A stretch of DNA of 64,000 bases. It comes from Ignavibacteriota bacterium. Lineage in GTDB: Bacteria > Bacteroidota > Ignavibacteria > Ignavibacteriales > Melioribacteraceae. The notes beneath the pieces were generated by a model that was not told the origin of the DNA, did not search any database, and saw only the letters and a list, made by a program, of their open reading frames with translations. Made by a program: the position numbers and the translations under genes. The DNA lies in contig PAAX01000013.1 of the NCBI GenBank assembly GCA_002698995.1, positions 1-64,000 on the forward strand, read 5' to 3'. Positions 5,042-11,923 of the stretch are shown here, piece by piece. Position 1 is the stretch's first letter. Each line of letters starts with the position of its first letter.

Positions 5042-6253
5042 TTATACTTTTAATTCTTCACCTTCAGTTTTAGCAATAGTTACAGCACCGCAGCTGTCGC
5101 TCCAAACATTAACAACCGTGCGGCACATATCCAAAATTCTATCAACAGAAAGAATTAAACCAACTCCTTCCAAAGGAAGACCTACTGCTGAAAGAATAAT
5201 TGTTATTGTTACAAGTCCCGCCATTGGAATACCTGCAGCACCAATTGAAGCAAGCAGAGCCGTAATCACAACAATAATCTGCTGAACAAAAGTTAACTCA
5301 ACTCCGTAAGCCTGTGCAATAAAAATAGCTGCCACACATTCGTATAAAGCAGTTCCATCCATATTTACAGTTGCCCCTAGCGGCAAAGTAAAACTTGTAA
5401 TTTTGTTTGATACCCCGGAATTATTCTCAACCGCATCAATTGTAAGGGGTAATGTAGCATTTGATGATGAAGTAGAAAATGCAGTTAATAAGGGAGTAGT
5501 CATAGCCTTAACATGAAGCCAAGGATCAGCTTTTGCAAAAAACTTTAAGATAAGAGGAAGCGTGACCATTGAATGAAAAGCTAATCCCAACAAAACAGTA
5601 ATCATATACAATCCCATACTTTGGACTAACTGAAGTAAATCATTCTGTTGAGATATTGTAACGGCAACAATTCCAAATATTCCTAAAGGAGCAAATTTTA
5701 TGATGAACATTGTAATCTTCATCATTACTTCAAAAAAAGCATCAAAGAAGTTTGTTAGATTAACTCTATAACTTTCTTTTATTTGAGTTATGAAAAATCC
5801 AAAAAGAATAGCAAAGAAGATTATTGAAAGCATATCTCCTTTAAGGAATGATTCAAAAATATTAACTGGAATTATATTTATTAAAGTATCGCCAAAGGAT
5901 TCTTTTGCAATTCCTAATTCTTCTACTTGCTTTGATAGACCAAGATCAGCACCAATACCAGGTTGAAAAATATTAACAAGAAACAGACCAATAAGAATAG
6001 CTAATAAAGAAGTTGATAAGTAGTAAGTCAACGTTTTAATACCAAGCTTGCCCAAATTCTCGGCATTTCCAATGTTAGTAACACCGGAGATAATAGAAGA
6101 GAGAATTAAAGGAACAATAATCATTTTAAGAGCTCTTAAAAATAAATCTCCCATCCAGCTTACATATTCAACATAATTTGGGAAAAGTGCTCCGTATAAA
6201 ACAGCTAAAACTAATGCGATTAATATCTGCCAGTGCAGCTTAATTTTTAGCAT
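5042..6253 (-). CDS. dicarboxylate/amino acid:cation symporter (GltP/GltT/DctA family)
   Basis: Takes up glutamate, aspartate or C4-dicarboxylates with H+ or Na+ through the inner membrane. The 403-residue chain shows the family hallmarks: the serine-rich HP1 loop AFSTSSSNATLPLT, the TM7 motif NMDGTALYE, and an HP2 region with the AAGIPMAGLV segment. The C-terminal helix carries DRILDMCRTVVNVWSD, including the Asp and Arg positions that contact substrate in the family. It is nine bases downstream of hemW and fifteen upstream of proC. Exact substrate is not determined; glutamate is the natural guess beside proC. Confidence 0.93.
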   Translation of the reverse strand: MLKIKLHWQILIALVLAVLYGALFPNYVEYVSWMGDLFLRALKMIIVPLILSSIISGVTNIGNAENLGKLGIKTLTYYLSTSLLAILIGLFLVNIFQPGIGADLGLSKQVEELGIAKESFGDTLINIIPVNIFESFLKGDMLSIIFFAILFGFFITQIKESYRVNLTNFFDAFFEVMMKITMFIIKFAPLGIFGIVAVTISQQNDLLQLVQSMGLYMITVLLGLAFHSMVTLPLILKFFAKADPWLHVKAMTTPLLTAFSTSSSNATLPLTIDAVENNSGVSNKITSFTLPLGATVNMDGTALYECVAAIFIAQAYGVELTFVQQIIVVITALLASIGAAGIPMAGLVTITIILSAVGLPLEGVGLILSVDRILDMCRTVVNVWSDSCGAVTIAKTEGEELKV

Positions 6254-6262
6254 TTGAATTCC

Positions 6263-7393
6263 TTATTGAAAGTTTAGTAAAATCTCATCACAAATTGCAT
6301 AACCCTTTGGGGTAAGCTTAATTAGATTATTTTTTTCTTCAACAAAATTATTTAACAAAAGTGTATCAAGATATTTCTTGTTGATCTCAATCCATTTCGT
6401 TCCAAAAATATTTTTTAATTCTGTTAAATCCAAACCTGAGCCCCTTAAAGCGAGCATTATATATTCATCAAGCATCTGTTCTCTGCTTAAAATCTCTTCG
6501 CCAATAACTGCATTCCCTTTTTGATTCATCATTGTAATGTACATTTTAAGTGAAGATACATTCCACCAGCGTTTACCGTTTGCAAATGAATGAGCAGAAG
6601 TACCGAATGACAAATAGTCTTTATAATCCCAGTAAGCTTTGTTATGAATACATTGGAATCCCTCTTGAGAAAAATTTGAAACTTCATACTGCATAAAATT
6701 ATTTTTTGTCATTTCATCAATTGTGAACTCATAAAGTTCTGCATCATAATCATCATCCTGCAGTTTTACTTTACCATCCAAAACCATTTTGTTTAGTATT
6801 GTTCCTTTTTCCAAAATGAGGCTGTACGCAGAAATGTGATTTATGGGAAGTTTAAAAGCAGTTTCCAGATTCGATTTCCACTTTTCTTTTGTCTGTTTAG
6901 GGAGATTAAAAATCAGATCTATGCTTATGTTATCAATTCCGGCTTCTTTAACATTATAAACTGTTTTTAATGCAGTTTCTTTATCATGAATTCTTGTTAA
7001 AAATTTTAATTCATCCTCGTTAAAGGATTGAATCCCAATACTTACTCGATTTATGCCGGCTTCAATAAACTTTTCTATTTTTTGCTTGTTAACGGTTCCC
7101 GGATTAGTTTCCAAAGTAATTTCACACTTTTCTTTCAACTGAAAATTACTTTGTATTGACTCAATTATTTCTCCTATATAACTTGGTTCTACAAAGCTTG
7201 GTGTACCGCCTCCAAAAAAAATTGAGATTATTTCTCGATTATTTCTTTCATTTGAAGCATAAAATTCAATTTCGTTTTTAAGAGTAGTTAAATAATTATT
7301 TAGATTATCATAACTAACAATTGAGTAAAAATCGCAATAGATACATTTATGATCGCAGAATGGAATATGAACATAAATAGCCGTTTCTTTCAA
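6263..7393 (-). CDS. hemW: HemW-like radical SAM heme chaperone
   Basis: A 376-residue radical SAM protein of the HemN/HemW family. The iron-sulfur ligands lie at C13, C17 and C20 (HIPFCDHKCIYCDF). The catalytic coproporphyrinogen oxidase HemN carries an additional cysteine after this motif; here the following residues are Asp-Phe, which points to HemW, a heme-binding protein for heme delivery. Other family features are FFGGGTPS, the ETNPGT segment, RVSIGIQSF and a C-terminal HemN-type domain. The start is TTG, as no ATG lies in frame just upstream and residue 3 onward aligns with family N-termini. It heads a likely five-gene minus-strand transcript and is divergent from the SCP2 gene. Confidence 0.9.
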   Translation of the reverse strand: MKETAIYVHIPFCDHKCIYCDFYSIVSYDNLNNYLTTLKNEIEFYASNERNNREIISIFFGGGTPSFVEPSYIGEIIESIQSNFQLKEKCEITLETNPGTVNKQKIEKFIEAGINRVSIGIQSFNEDELKFLTRIHDKETALKTVYNVKEAGIDNISIDLIFNLPKQTKEKWKSNLETAFKLPINHISAYSLILEKGTILNKMVLDGKVKLQDDDYDAELYEFTIDEMTKNNFMQYEVSNFSQEGFQCIHNKAYWDYKDYLSFGTSAHSFANGKRWWNVSSLKMYITMMNQKGNAVIGEEILSREQMLDEYIMLALRGSGLDLTELKNIFGTKWIEINKKYLDTLLLNNFVEEKNNLIKLTPKGYAICDEILLNFQ

Positions 7394-7462
7394 AATAAGC
7401 CTTTTACCGTTAATTCTTTTTTTACAAATTTATATAAAAGTATTTGAACATTTAGGTGATTT

Positions 7463-7861
7463 ATGAAACAAAAAGCATTTAGTAATGAATGGGCACATCT
7501 CTACAAAGAAAAAATTAATTCTAATAATGAATTTAAAAATCTGGCAGTTTCATGGAGCGATTCTTTAATTCTTGAAACAAATGAAGAAAAAGAAAAAGTT
7601 GGTGTTTTGTTAGTATTAAAAAATGGTGAATGTACATTAGCAAAGATTGCAGATCAAAATGATTATGATAGTACTACTTATGTTATTAACGCAAAGATAG
7701 ATGTATGGAGAAATTTATTAGAAGGAAAAGTTGATCCGGTTATGGCAATTATGCAGAAAAAATTAATTCTTGTTAAAGGGAGTCTTACAAATTTGCTGAA
7801 ATATGTTAATGCTGCAAAAGAATTATTAAAGACAGCCAAACAAATTGAAACATATTTTTAA
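7463..7861 (+). CDS. SCP2 sterol/lipid-carrier domain protein
   Basis: This 132-residue single-domain protein resembles the sterol carrier protein 2 fold. It shows the beta-sheet region (SLILETNEEKEKVGVLLVLKNG) followed by the helix and loop typical of the family: VWRNLLEGKVDPVMAIMQKKL then VKGSLTNLLKYV. SCP2 domains hold long acyl chains or sterols in a hydrophobic tunnel. The start is supported by an upstream AGGTGA. It is followed almost immediately by the R2lox gene, so the two are probably one transcript. Function is inferred from family only; the natural ligand is unknown. Confidence 0.8.
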   Translation: MKQKAFSNEWAHLYKEKINSNNEFKNLAVSWSDSLILETNEEKEKVGVLLVLKNGECTLAKIADQNDYDSTTYVINAKIDVWRNLLEGKVDPVMAIMQKKLILVKGSLTNLLKYVNAAKELLKTAKQIETYF

Positions 7862-7874
7862 CGGTTATATCAAT

Positions 7875-8741
7875 ATGAATGAAATCTATAAAACCACAAG
7901 TGAGACAGGATTGGATAAAGAATCCTTTCCGTTTAAGCTCTATCAAAAAGCGAAAAAATTTGGGATCTGGAATCCTGAGGAGATTGATTTCACAAAGGAT
8001 AAAACTGACTGGATCAATCTTAATGAAAAAGAGAAAGATGTTATCTTAAGATTAACAGCTATGTTTCAAGCCGGTGAAGAATCAGTAACCGAGCATATTC
8101 TTCCATTGATTTCGGTTATTGCTAAAAGAAAAGAACTTGAAGAAGAAATGTATTTGACTACTTTTCTTTTTGAAGAAGCAAAGCATACAGAATTTTTCAG
8201 AAAATTTTTGGATGATGTAACCGAATCAAAATTTGATTTAACTAAATATCACACAGAAAATTATAGAACTCTCTTTTATGAAGAACTTCCTAATGCAATG
8301 AATAATCTTTTAACAGATGATTCTGATGAAGCTCTTGTGATTGCTTCAACTACATATAATATGATTGTTGAAGGTATTTTAGCAGAGACAGGTTATCATG
8401 CCTATTTTACAATGCTTAAGAGAAACGGAATTATGGAAGGAATGCAGAATGGAATTACTCTTCTTAAACGTGACGAATCAAGACATATTGCATACGGAGT
8501 ATATCTTTTAGCAAAATCTATAAAAAATGATCCTTCCCTTTTTGAAAAGATTGAAGAAAGAATGAATTCGCTTTTCCTAATTGCAATGGGAATTATAAGT
8601 GAGATTTTCGAAAGTTACGATGAAATGCCGTTTGGATTAAAGATGGAAGATTTCACTGATTTTGCATTGGATCAATTCAACAAAAGATTTGAAAAATTGG
8701 AAAGGGCTAAATCCGGTATAATTGATATGACCGAAGATTAA
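7875..8741 (+). CDS. R2-like ligand-binding oxidase (R2lox), Mn/Fe ferritin-like
   Basis: A ribonucleotide-reductase-R2-like four-helix protein of the R2lox class. It assembles a Mn/Fe cofactor, binds a long-chain fatty acid and forms a Val-Tyr ether cross-link. Using an earlier in-frame TTG (7845) as residue 1, the residues E78, E111, H114, E176, E211 and H214 match the six metal ligands. V81 and Y171 match the cross-link pair, with a constant offset of nine from the published numbering of the Geobacillus protein. The motifs are GEESVTEH, FEEAKHTEFF, YNMIVEG and RDESRHIAYG. I chose the ATG at 7875 (288 residues) because the TTG start would lie inside the SCP2 gene; neither has a clear ribosome site. 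The physiological reaction of R2lox is not established. Confidence 0.88.
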   Translation: MNEIYKTTSETGLDKESFPFKLYQKAKKFGIWNPEEIDFTKDKTDWINLNEKEKDVILRLTAMFQAGEESVTEHILPLISVIAKRKELEEEMYLTTFLFEEAKHTEFFRKFLDDVTESKFDLTKYHTENYRTLFYEELPNAMNNLLTDDSDEALVIASTTYNMIVEGILAETGYHAYFTMLKRNGIMEGMQNGITLLKRDESRHIAYGVYLLAKSIKNDPSLFEKIEERMNSLFLIAMGIISEIFESYDEMPFGLKMEDFTDFALDQFNKRFEKLERAKSGIIDMTED

Positions 8742-8757: not shown

Positions 8758-9888
8758 TCAGAGTAAGATTTTTAATGTTCTTACAGCTATATCAATTTCT
8801 TCTTTTGTGTTATAATAATGAGGTGAAAATCTTATATAACCTTCCCGCAATTCACCCAAAATATTTTGATCATTCAATTCTTCAAAAAGCTGCTGACTAT
8901 TTTCTGTTTTGAACGAAACTATTCCGGAGAGAATACTTTTATCATCACTATTAACAAAAGGAGTAATTCCTAGTTCATTCAATTTGTCAATTAAGTAAAC
9001 GGAATTTTCAATTACGCTCTTTTCTAAATTTTCAAAACCAAATGAATTAAATAATTTCAATGACTCATAAAGAGCTGTTATTCCAATTGCATTCATAGTT
9101 CCGTTTTGAAATCTGTCTGCATTATCATTCAAATCTTGTTCATAGTTAAGCATATCAAAAGGATTTTTAACAGAAAGCCAACCAAGATGTTTTTGATTTA
9201 TTCTGTTCTGTAATTCTTCAGTTAAATAAATGTATGAAAGTCCTTGCAATGCCATCAACCATTTTTGTGAACCTCCAGCTAAAAAGTCAATCTTCATTTC
9301 TTCAACATCAATATCTACTGCCGATACAGCTTGAATTGCATCAACTGCAAAAATAATATTGTACTTTCTACATAATTCTCCAATTGATTTCAATTCGGCT
9401 CTAAATCCGCTTAAAAACTGCACAGCACTTATTGAGAGCATTTTTGTTTTGGGAGTAATAGCTTTTTCCAAATCTTCCAATAAAATTTTACCATCTCTGG
9501 ATTTTACAAAATCAATTTCCACACCATAGCTTTTTAAATTTTGAAAAGGATAAACATTTGAAGGAAACTCAAGATCATTCAAAATAATTCTATCCCCTGA
9601 TTTCCATTCCAATCCTTGTGCTAGAACATTAAGTCCGTTTGAAACATTATCAACCCAGGCAATTCTTTTGGGATTTGCATTAATCAGTTTTCCCAGCAAT
9701 TCCTTAGCACCAATGCTAGCTCTTACAAACGTGTTAAAATTTTTAATTGGTGAGACAGATCTTTCAAATAAGTAATCGTTTAATTTCTGCACAATTGGTG
9801 ATGCTAAAGGTCCGATTGAAGCGTGATTGAAATAAATTTTTCCGGTTTGTAAATGAGGGAATAATTGGCGGACTTCATTCTTTGTCAT
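8758..9888 (-). CDS. class V aminotransferase (cysteine desulfurase / isopenicillin-N epimerase-like)
   Basis: A PLP enzyme of fold type I. The Schiff-base lysine lies in GGSQKWLMALQG (K209 counted from the ATG), and the Asp that pairs with the pyridine nitrogen is in FAVDAIQAV. Other family motifs are FNHASIGPLA at the N-terminus and WVDNVSNGLNVLA. It lacks an obvious persulfide-carrying cysteine loop, so a true cysteine desulfurase is doubtful. Kynureninase-like or epimerase-like activity is as likely. I start at the ATG preceded by GGAAAATAGA rather than the in-frame TTG four codons earlier. It stands alone, converging on R2lox; substrate unknown. Confidence 0.82.
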   Translation of the reverse strand: MTKNEVRQLFPHLQTGKIYFNHASIGPLASPIVQKLNDYLFERSVSPIKNFNTFVRASIGAKELLGKLINANPKRIAWVDNVSNGLNVLAQGLEWKSGDRIILNDLEFPSNVYPFQNLKSYGVEIDFVKSRDGKILLEDLEKAITPKTKMLSISAVQFLSGFRAELKSIGELCRKYNIIFAVDAIQAVSAVDIDVEEMKIDFLAGGSQKWLMALQGLSYIYLTEELQNRINQKHLGWLSVKNPFDMLNYEQDLNDNADRFQNGTMNAIGITALYESLKLFNSFGFENLEKSVIENSVYLIDKLNELGITPFVNSDDKSILSGIVSFKTENSQQLFEELNDQNILGELREGYIRFSPHYYNTKEEIDIAVRTLKILL

Positions 9889-10016
9889 TCTATTTTCCAA
9901 AAATTGCTGTTAAATAAAAAGTTAAGTTACTAAATAATTAGGAAAATTTGGAATGATATATAATTCGGTTTGAAATTGATACGCAACAAATAGACTGTTT
10001 GCAAAATTAAAATTTT

Positions 10017-10034
10017 TATAAGAGAAGTGCCTTC
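10017..10034 (+). repeat. left arm of inverted repeat flanking the HEAT-like gene
   Basis: TATAAGAGAAGTGCCTTC. Its reverse complement, with one extra A and one substitution, occurs at 10513-10531 on the other side of the gene at 10078-10494. In the gene's transcript this arm would lie in the 3' untranslated part. Confidence 0.7.
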
Positions 10035-10077
10035 AGGCTTTTTAGTTTTTTATTATTTAATTGGTATTTAGAATTAA

Positions 10078-10494
10078 TCAGTTCTTTAATTGAATAACAG
10101 CAGCCTCGTTCCATCCTTTCCACTCCTTGCAAACTTTCACATAAACTCTTTTAACTCTTTCATCATCTTCATTCTTAAAGAAATTTATCAAGGCTTTTTT
10201 ACCTCTTAAATCTCCTATCTCATGCAAAGCTAAGGCTGTCAATATTTTCAAATCACTATTATCTGTTACTTTAATTGTCCTAATTAATTCATCAACCAAA
10301 TTATTTAATTTATATTTTCCCGCTAAATAAATACAACTTTTCTGTAAACCGTAATTACCGGATTCAATACCTAAAACAAGATTCGCAATTGATCTATCAT
10401 CAAATTTATAATTTATATTCTCTTGAGCAATAATCTGCTTTTGAGATAAGACTGCAGATAAAACTACAATCATAATTAATATACGTTTTTTCAT
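10078..10494 (-). CDS. small exported HEAT-repeat-like protein
   Basis: A 138-residue protein with a signal peptide (MKKRILIMIVVLSAVLS, cleavage near residue 20-24). The mature part is alpha-helical with two to three HEAT-like units. The clearest is LKILTALALHEIGDLRGKKALINFFKN in meaning: an A/L-rich helix, a GD turn, then a second helix. HEAT modules bind proteins, so a periplasmic adaptor role is a guess. A strong AAGGAGG sits seven bases before the ATG. The gene stands alone, with about 180 bases of uncoded sequence downstream and 120 upstream, and is bracketed by an imperfect inverted repeat. Confidence 0.72.
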   Translation of the reverse strand: MKKRILIMIVVLSAVLSQKQIIAQENINYKFDDRSIANLVLGIESGNYGLQKSCIYLAGKYKLNNLVDELIRTIKVTDNSDLKILTALALHEIGDLRGKKALINFFKNEDDERVKRVYVKVCKEWKGWNEAAVIQLKN

Positions 10495-10512
10495 TTTGTA
10501 CCTCCTTAAATA

Positions 10513-10531
10513 GAAGGCACTTTCTCTTACA
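10513..10531 (-). repeat. right arm of inverted repeat flanking the HEAT-like gene
   Basis: On the minus strand this reads TGTAAGAGAAAGTGCCTTC and matches the plus-strand arm at 10017-10034 apart from one substitution and one inserted A. It lies in the leader of the HEAT-like gene, just before its ribosome site. Confidence 0.7.
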
Positions 10532-10615
10532 TTTTTATAAAGAACAAAAATTCAATGCAAAGAATAGCTTAACAGATTACGAATGGCAAGTTAAATTTAG
10601 GTTAATAAGCAATAC

Positions 10616-11923
10616 ATGTCTCTTTTAATTTCAACAGTTATAATAATATCTTTTGGTCAACTTTTGTGCTCAATTTTCGATAATCCTATTGTAATAATTA
10701 TTAAAAGGACTAATACGAAAAAGATAATTGCGGGAATAATATTTATTTCCCAGATAACATTATTAATTGCGCAAGATTCATTTAATGTTGAATATCACGG
10801 ATATATTAATTGGACAGCAATTTATGATTCGAGACAAACCGTTTCTGCCAGAGAAGGTCATTTTCTTTTATATCCAAAAGGTTTGAGTGCAGATGCTTTT
10901 GGAAAAGATATAAATGCTGTACCAAATCTAAATTTTTCTGTAATTCAAACAAGAGTTTCATCTAAAGTTACAACGCCAACTTTTCTTGGTGCTAAAACTT
11001 ATGGATTAATTGAAGCTGAATTTATGGGAAACTCTGAAGCTGATGTTAATGGATTCAGACTTCGTCACGCTTTTATTAATCTTGATTGGGGAAGCACAAG
11101 TTTGTTAATTGGTCAGACTTGGATTCCAATGTTTATAACAGAAGCTTTTCCTCAGCAGATTGGCTCTAACGGCGGTGCTCCTTTTCAACCGTTCGGAAGA
11201 AATCCTCAAATTAGATTAACACAAAAATTCGGAAGTATTTCCTTAATCGGAACAATGATGACTCAGAGAGATTATGTAAGTCCGGGTCCCAACGGTTCAA
11301 GCTCTGAATATATGAGAAACTCTACTTTGCCCGATTTTAATCTGCAAGTAAGATATAATATTCCCTCTTTCTTAGTAGGAGTTTCCGGGCAGTTCAAGAA
11401 ACTTCGTCCTTCTACTGTCAGCGAGTTAAATCATTATACCGATGAAACTGTAAGCGGATATTCTTTTATGGCTTTTACAAAAATTACAACCAGTAATTTT
11501 AATTTTCTTGCGGAAGGTGTTTACGGAACTAACCTTGCAGATTATACTATGCTTGGCGGTTATGCAGTTAAATCTACTGATCCGGTTACAAAAGTTCAAA
11601 AGTACGAACCGTTAAAAACTTATTCAGTATGGACAGATTTTTCATATAACAATTTCTTTATATATGGATTATTTCTTGGATATACAGAAAATTTAGGTTC
11701 AACAGAACAAGTAGAAAATCAATACTTTGCGAGGGGATCAAACATAAAAAGTATATACAGAATTGCTCCAAGAATTTCTTTCAAGCATGCAGAACTTCTA
11801 ATATCTCTTGAGTATGAATTAACTGCAGCAGCATACGGAATTCCAAATCAAAAGGGAATTGTAGAGAACACAACTAATTTTAAGAACAACAGAGTTTACA
11901 CATCAGTGTATTACTTTTTTTAG
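10616..11923 (+). CDS. outer-membrane porin-like beta-barrel protein
   Basis: The mature part (after about residue 53) is made of alternating amphipathic strands. It has a porin-like first strand (NVEYHGYINWTAIYD), an LRHAFINLDWG/LLIGQTW segment resembling DcaP- and OprP-type porins, and a C-terminal strand ending in SVYYFF, the terminal Phe used in barrel insertion. No specific porin family is proven. The start is uncertain: the ATG used adds about 35 residues before a good signal peptide (KKIIAGIIFISQITLLIAQ), and no ATG, GTG or TTG lies directly before it. The chemoreceptor gene begins 20 bases downstream, so both are likely one transcript. Confidence 0.75.
   Translation: MSLLISTVIIISFGQLLCSIFDNPIVIIIKRTNTKKIIAGIIFISQITLLIAQDSFNVEYHGYINWTAIYDSRQTVSAREGHFLLYPKGLSADAFGKDINAVPNLNFSVIQTRVSSKVTTPTFLGAKTYGLIEAEFMGNSEADVNGFRLRHAFINLDWGSTSLLIGQTWIPMFITEAFPQQIGSNGGAPFQPFGRNPQIRLTQKFGSISLIGTMMTQRDYVSPGPNGSSSEYMRNSTLPDFNLQVRYNIPSFLVGVSGQFKKLRPSTVSELNHYTDETVSGYSFMAFTKITTSNFNFLAEGVYGTNLADYTMLGGYAVKSTDPVTKVQKYEPLKTYSVWTDFSYNNFFIYGLFLGYTENLGSTEQVENQYFARGSNIKSIYRIAPRISFKHAELLISLEYELTAAAYGIPNQKGIVENTTNFKNNRVYTSVYYFF

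Follow-up and report, generated by a model that had tools for sequence, protein, structure and literature searches.

An SCP2-fold protein encoded directly before the R2-like ligand-binding oxidase, and fused to it in other bacteria: a putative lipid carrier for the oxidase

In solved structures of R2-like ligand-binding oxidases (R2lox) a long-chain fatty acid sits on the metals within a hydrophobic channel, and a two-electron oxidation by the cofactor forms a Tyr-Val cross-link; in 2019 the physiological function of these proteins was stated as not identified (PMC6399176). The stretch of DNA analysed here, hereafter the window, covers 64,000 nucleotides of contig PAAX01000013.1 from an Ignavibacteriota bacterium (GCA_002698995.1), and in it a gene for an SCP2-fold protein precedes a R2lox gene. 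The locus raises the question of whether the SCP2 protein serves the oxidase, and in which role, or is its neighbour for historical reasons.

The initial annotation had placed the SCP2 gene directly before the R2lox gene, and this order was confirmed (Table 1). Because the R2lox ATG lies 13 bases past the SCP2 stop, with a divergent HemW gene upstream and a convergent aminotransferase gene downstream, the pair is a two-gene unit. Judging by spacing only, the two genes are probably co-transcribed; a local promoter scan around the pair gave chance level only. The R2lox start at 7845 given earlier had to be revised. This is a TTG that overlaps the SCP2 gene by 17 bases and would make the oxidase 298 aa long. 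The in-frame ATG at 7875 begins just before a conserved TTSxxGL stretch and is most likely the start. Further out, a sodium:dicarboxylate symporter gene is found 1.2 kb upstream of the pair (5042-6253) and a gene for a DcaP-like outer membrane protein about 2 kb downstream (10616-11923).

Table 1. Features of the SCP2-R2lox locus (window coordinates).
Feature	Position	Strand	Basis or remark
HemW-type radical SAM protein	6263..7393	-	TIGR00539, 303 bits; synteny marker, also flanks SCP2 in genus g12
Intergenic stretch HemW/SCP2, 69 bases, probable promoter region (inferred)	7394..7462	.	ORF positions
SCP2-fold protein, 132 aa	7463..7861	+	Subfamily fused to R2lox elsewhere; PF02036, A4 subfamily profile, AlphaFold
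Gap from SCP2 stop to R2lox ATG, 13 bases	7862..7874	+	From sequence
R2-like ligand-binding oxidase (R2lox), 288 aa from ATG	7875..8741	+	NF006202, residues, PDB relatives
Class V aminotransferase, convergent, bounds the pair	8758..9900	-	PF00266, 171.6 bits

The oxidase was assigned with the NF006202 model, which it matches at 398.1 bits (cut-off 315). Among PDB entries, 4hr0 and variants, 7qbk, 6qrz, 3ee4 and 7qbp match it best, far above ribonucleotide reductase (RNR) subunits, some of these entries being titled ribonucleotide reductase by their depositors. All nine active-site residues that we checked are present: the six metal ligands (E68, E101, H104, E166, E201 and H204), the ether cross-link residues V71 and Y161, and A170, the tunnel alanine, which stands at the Phe position of RNR R2. 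Positions were transferred by alignment from G. kaustophilus, with its residues as given in PMC10867098 and PMC6399176. The intact metal site and Val-Tyr pair reported before are thus upheld, and only the numbering changes, since Val81-Tyr171 becomes V71-Y161 (minus ten) when counted from the ATG. An ordinary RNR small subunit with an unrelated neighbour was considered too, as PF00268 does match the protein. RNR subunit models reach at most 59 bits against the 398 of NF006202, and V71, Y161 and A170 agree with R2lox; we reject this reading on scores and residues and give it a negligible probability.

The SCP2 protein scores 25.1 bits against PF02036 in the Pfam scan (cut-off 21.3) and is the only match to that family across the 4.23-Mb genome. 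The A4 subfamily profile, which includes the window sequence, gives it 156 bits. Its AlphaFold model, built from 15 natural sequences, is predicted with pLDDT 96.0 and pTM 0.89, and by this model the protein has the SCP2 fold. The best PDB match of the model is the Thermus SCP2 2cx7 (Z 21.8, rmsd 1.6 over 124 residues, 33% identity). Among the matches listed, the SCP2 domains of alkylsulfatases reach Z 10.8; the SCP2 of MFE-2 (1ikt) gives Z 9.7, a mosquito SCP2 with a C16 fatty acid Z 9.6, and UbiJ Z 8.3-8.8 at 11-12% identity. When the A4 profile is run over PDB chains, the Thermus proteins score 133 bits and the next chain 20.7.

The pairing recurs beyond the lineage of the window: several phyla have it, usually with both parts in a single polypeptide. 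The refuting outcome of no recurrence, set out in the initial annotation, thus did not occur. Across six group surveys (whole-fusion profile, E at most 1e-40), 48 of 117 R2lox-bearing genomes have SCP2 fused to R2lox or directly before it. The six centre genomes were picked for carrying R2lox, four of them linked, so these rates are not unbiased. Since the fusion profile reads one frame, it misses any SCP2 gene that lies in a different one. SCP2 profiles were therefore also run over the flanking DNA, in many cases no more than about 1.5 kb, of 68 of the 69 genomes left; the last, G1283, is truncated by a contig end.

Rates differ between groups. The Rhodothermia-type class, that of the Rhodothermales locus L097, has R2lox in 48 of 195 genomes, with SCP2 in the same frame in 35 of the 48 (32 full length, one covering 44-435, two cut by contig ends) and 13 without linked SCP2. 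Both R2lox genomes of the KSB1 phylum (2 of 82) carry the fusion. For Gemmatimonadota, R2lox was found in 13 of 180 genomes, five fused and one forming an adjacent pair with a divergent R2lox. Acidobacteriota have R2lox in 15 of 297 genomes; SCP2 lies directly upstream, unfused, in three of them, exactly those with a high-scoring R2lox; the remaining 12 R2lox score low (152-226 bits). Chloroflexota have it in 28 of 201, one fused (the survey centre) and one adjacent, and the SCP2-profile screens of the flanks detected no linked SCP2 in the other 26. Finally, no link was seen in the Lujinxingia phylum (R2lox in 11 of 188 genomes, 0 of 11 linked), where ten R2lox are without linked SCP2 and the eleventh is cut by a contig end.

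Single loci show how SCP2 genes of the same subfamily can stand to R2lox. In Gemmatimonadota L254 (G1526) and L255 (G1490) such a gene precedes a divergent R2lox in the same orientation, at a distance of 2.0 and 1.4 kb; these two were not counted as linked. L233 (G1496) has one (93 bits) directly before a much more divergent R2lox (176 bits), with one in-frame stop between. The one in the Gemmatimonadota genome G385 (L176 3191-3622, 115.7 bits) is on a different contig from the R2lox of that genome, which has no SCP2 beside it.

Two other samples were examined. A 296-genome phylum sample holds 12 genomes with R2lox over cut-off, including the window; ten of the 11 others have it in one open frame with SCP2, and only L007 shows none. 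By contig coordinates, these R2lox genomes recur among those of the Rhodothermia-type class. Among the best 80 of 553 confirmed loci from a genome-contig scan, mostly Chloroflexota by title, seven are fused (L040, L042, L046, L077, L097, L100 and L109, with L040 and L042 nearly identical), three are adjacent (L060, L090 and L099) and 70 are without linked SCP2.

The link was then controlled in both directions. A profile made from 13 unfused SCP2s (window, adjacent and stand-alone) picks out the SCP2 portion of all 40 fused frames (counting duplicates; E at most 1e-27) and matches 0 of 118 unlinked R2lox frames. Over 226 R2lox-bearing loci, many of which repeat the same genome, every directly adjacent SCP2 precedes R2lox in the same orientation, at 26-88 bases from the R2lox domain, and no SCP2 match is on the opposite strand. 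Since 48 of 117 genomes have the two parts fused or directly in tandem and no opposite-strand SCP2 occurs in the 226 loci, the pairing is more than chance. Of 33 R2lox genomes searched, 30 have PF02036 genes of some kind. That both families occur in a genome therefore says little, and the case is made by adjacency and fusion.

Pfam alone recognises only part of these fusions. For ten fused proteins, SCP2 was over cut-off in five (L003, L006, L179, L181 and L225), below it in one (L223) and without a match in four (L004, L010, L011 and L177). The long frames of L122-L125 (717 aa and more) were considered as further fusions and rejected, the one scanned (L122) being without a second Pfam domain.

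Two distant SCP2 branches are also linked to R2lox. In Chloroflexota G938 (L249 1855-3181) a classical SCP2 (PF02036, 62.7 bits), of another branch than the window SCP2, stops a single base short of the R2lox ATG. We also inspected plasmid loci, 6 of 46 matches. Rhodococcus opacus pROB01 carries, in one direction, genes for an NDMA-dependent alcohol dehydrogenase, R2lox, an NAD(P)/FAD oxidoreductase, a ferredoxin, an aldehyde dehydrogenase, an SCP2 and a fatty acid-CoA ligase; pRB11 of R. oxybenzonivorans has the same set in a different order with a regulator pair between. The Mycobacterium plasmid pMyong1 likewise clusters an SCP2 with R2lox, alcohol dehydrogenase and fatty acid-CoA ligase, its SCP2 having no Pfam match alone and being 60% identical to that of R. 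opacus. Of these actinobacterial clusters, two include ferredoxin, FAD oxidoreductase and aldehyde dehydrogenase. The R2lox of Rhodococcus sp. 008 is accompanied by genes for alcohol dehydrogenase, an oxidoreductase and ferredoxin; the stretch shown carries no SCP2 annotation, and annotated SCP2 is absent from the R2lox loci of Haloterrigena and of G. kaustophilus pHTA426. In this last locus (L037) a divergent R2lox adjoins an adenylate-forming enzyme near a UbiD-family decarboxylase gene. The actinobacterial SCP2s are 15-19% identical to the window SCP2 and were not tied to its subfamily by profile comparison (hhalign probability 2.4; 2-6 bits).

Around the fusions themselves no common lipid pathway is evident among the few neighbour families identified, and we dropped the idea that fused or Chloroflexota R2lox share a conserved metabolic context, as none was evident. 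One neighbourhood comparison dropped 13 of 96 loci in which the R2lox ORF lost an overlap contest. The largest recurring neighbour is MnmG, divergent from the fusion in 18 of 43 loci (e.g. L204 and L211; Pfam-checked in L204 only). FeoB occurs in seven of 43 loci and an AMP-binding enzyme on the opposite strand in five, one copy of each having been scanned. In nine loci the fusion is followed in the same direction by a secreted gene, which in L204, the one locus scanned, encodes a reprolysin-type peptidase. In L077, FeoB (5273-7507) lies 47 bases before the fused gene and an AMP-binding enzyme (9313-11199) 449 bases after it. Two Acidobacteriota loci (L090 8883-10430 and L099 8864-10390, the latter by eye) have a 5'-nucleotidase-family gene directly after R2lox on the same strand.

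The next point is how the pair came about. In the family of the window, R2lox is found in 1 of 116 genomes and the SCP2 subfamily in 4 of 116. The three further SCP2 carriers, all of genus g12 (G051, G059 and G066), have no R2lox match; their SCP2 stands at the same place, divergent from HemW and with R2lox absent (L187, L188 and L189). SCP2 is 39-42% and HemW 64-66% identical between g12 and the window. Either R2lox arrived behind a resident SCP2, or an inherited pair later lost R2lox. In the Rhodothermia-type class, strong R2lox-type SCP2s (over 100 bits) are present in 39 of 195 genomes: 35 are fusions, three stand alone (G802, G711 and G714) and one runs to a contig end (G845). The subfamily is therefore not exclusive to R2lox genomes, with three of four carriers in the window family and four of 39 in the Rhodothermia-type class as exceptions. 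The functional pairing suggested in the initial annotation holds in so far as the two parts recur together and fuse; it had missed that the subfamily also stands without R2lox and that many R2lox are without a linked SCP2.

In a 74-row R2lox tree the window sits beside the fused L181 (support 83/91), and in a wider quick tree of 82 rows this part is not separated. SCP2 linkage changes six times on the former and nine times on the latter, the well-supported branches of which force only one change. On these trees one old pair, followed by many losses, may account for most linked cases; they yield neither a single clean origin nor a firm count of independent origins. SCP2 and R2lox distances correlate over 28 linked pairs, 22 of them fusions (Mantel r 0.84, 0 of 2000 permutations as high), as expected for joint inheritance.

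These data bear on the idea that the window genes are neighbours by history only and each acts alone in this genome, SCP2 being ancestral at the HemW locus and R2lox either inserted beside it or lost in relatives. The three g12 genomes with SCP2 beside HemW and no R2lox favour it, as does the rarity of R2lox in the family. The same genomes are 66-87% complete, however, and R2lox may sit in their missing parts. Furthermore, both window proteins come from the subfamilies whose members occur fused in other genomes, and a chance landing behind that very partner, on the same strand and with a 13-base gap, is unlikely. We regard neighbourhood by history only as quite unlikely.

A functional link between SCP2 and R2lox is well supported by these sequence comparisons. 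As for its nature, SCP2 domains bind lipids, and the SCP2 of UbiJ has been proposed to hold intermediates of the Ubi metabolon (PMC9499169). Because covalent joining of the two parts recurs, an SCP2 that supplies or removes the R2lox lipid is the best explanation, and we consider it fairly probable that SCP2 is a dedicated carrier which hands over a long-chain lipid to R2lox, or takes its product, with R2lox as an O2-dependent hydroxylase. What we infer includes transfer, contact, hydroxylation, product, electron source and a shared transcript. The hydrophobic tunnel of SCP2 would receive a long-chain lipid from the membrane or the cytosol, for presentation to the hydrophobic channel of R2lox, whose Mn/Fe site would use O2 and two electrons for hydroxylation of an aliphatic C-H bond. 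Alternatively, SCP2 might carry off the hydroxylated product. The window encodes the two as separate, probably co-transcribed proteins, the same parts forming one polypeptide in many Bacteroidota, KSB1 and Gemmatimonadota genomes. Of the proposal in the initial annotation, recurrence and fusion support the functional link to R2lox; delivery of substrate, removal of product and tethering to the membrane are putative roles of SCP2.

Lysates with GkR2loxI, the R2lox of G. kaustophilus, were reported in 2024 to consume C10-C22 alkanes (PMC10867098). That claim comes from crude lysates, and a double ligand mutation had a modest effect, the mutant keeping much of the activity (PMC10867098).

In the fused model, the linker has pLDDT under 50 at 128-148 and is probably flexible. 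Such a low-confidence linker also fits a tether, which brings in another role for SCP2: it could be a membrane-docking or stabilising domain, the lipid entering a membrane-held R2lox directly and uncarried. In simulations, the SCP2 domain of UbiJ adsorbs to membranes (PMC9499169). The SCP2 fold is nevertheless well kept in the modelled window protein, and many R2lox have no linked SCP2; we consider a docking or stabilising role unlikely.

A third possibility concerns the ligand, which could be an isoprenoid (a carotenoid or quinone precursor), with SCP2 playing the part of UbiJ for an isoprenoid hydroxylase. UbiJ belongs to the Ubi metabolon together with three hydroxylases (PMC9499169). L214, a fused neighbour of the window in the 74-row tree, has a lycopene cyclase gene, a TspO gene and a TfoX-like gene downstream of the fused gene on the same strand (5539-7744). 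This context is limited to one locus, though, solved R2lox bind fatty acids (PMC6399176), and a fatty acid-CoA ligase is part of the Rhodococcus clusters, all of which makes an isoprenoid quite unlikely. The preferred ligand of the proposed carrier stays a long-chain lipid, and the Rhodococcus plasmid clusters (L032 and L034) offer a candidate pathway, candidate electron donors and candidate downstream enzymes for R2lox.

Compared with known systems, the window oxidase matches GkR2loxI (4hr0) and 3ee4, which we take to be the R2lox of Mycobacterium tuberculosis, over the whole domain, and it shares with GkR2loxI the metal ligands, the Val-Tyr pair and the tunnel alanine. Unlike the fusions, the solved chains of 4hr0 and 3ee4 (316 and 323 residues) have no SCP2 domain. 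The alkylsulfatases SdsA1 and Pisa1 and MFE-2 are lipid-acting enzymes that likewise bear an SCP2 domain (Z about 10). It is C-terminal in SdsA1 and Pisa1, and presumably in MFE-2, whereas in the R2lox fusions it is N-terminal and placed on a ferritin-like Mn/Fe oxidase. The Thermus thermophilus SCP2 (2cx7, 1wfr) is of the same subfamily as the window SCP2, with 33% identity and 133 bits to the A4 profile. It was solved as a stand-alone protein, unlike the fusions, and the R2lox model has no match in a Thermus composti control genome. The GkR2loxI cluster as described in PMC10867098 names no SCP2. UbiJ (6h6n-6h6p) is alike in having an SCP2 fold proposed to bind a lipid intermediate in a complex with hydroxylases (PMC9499169), and differs in being a separate accessory protein for other hydroxylases, at the low identity to the window SCP2 given above. 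We found no description of an SCP2-R2lox fusion in CC-licensed PMC literature. R2lox and SCP2 are each known singly, and by sequence the fused and paired forms appear to be a new arrangement of known parts.

Natural fusions with a putative lipid carrier would provide a direct handle on the function of R2lox, the physiological role of which was not identified as of 2019 (PMC6399176). Somewhat more tentatively, and with slightly less than even confidence, we propose that SCP2-R2lox acts as a bacterial lipid monooxygenase, self-contained and widespread, whose built-in carrier would load a long-chain substrate derived from the membrane into the Mn/Fe oxidase; the two-gene form in the window would be its split version. 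If this is true, the lipid bound by the carrier would reveal the long-sought natural substrate of R2lox.
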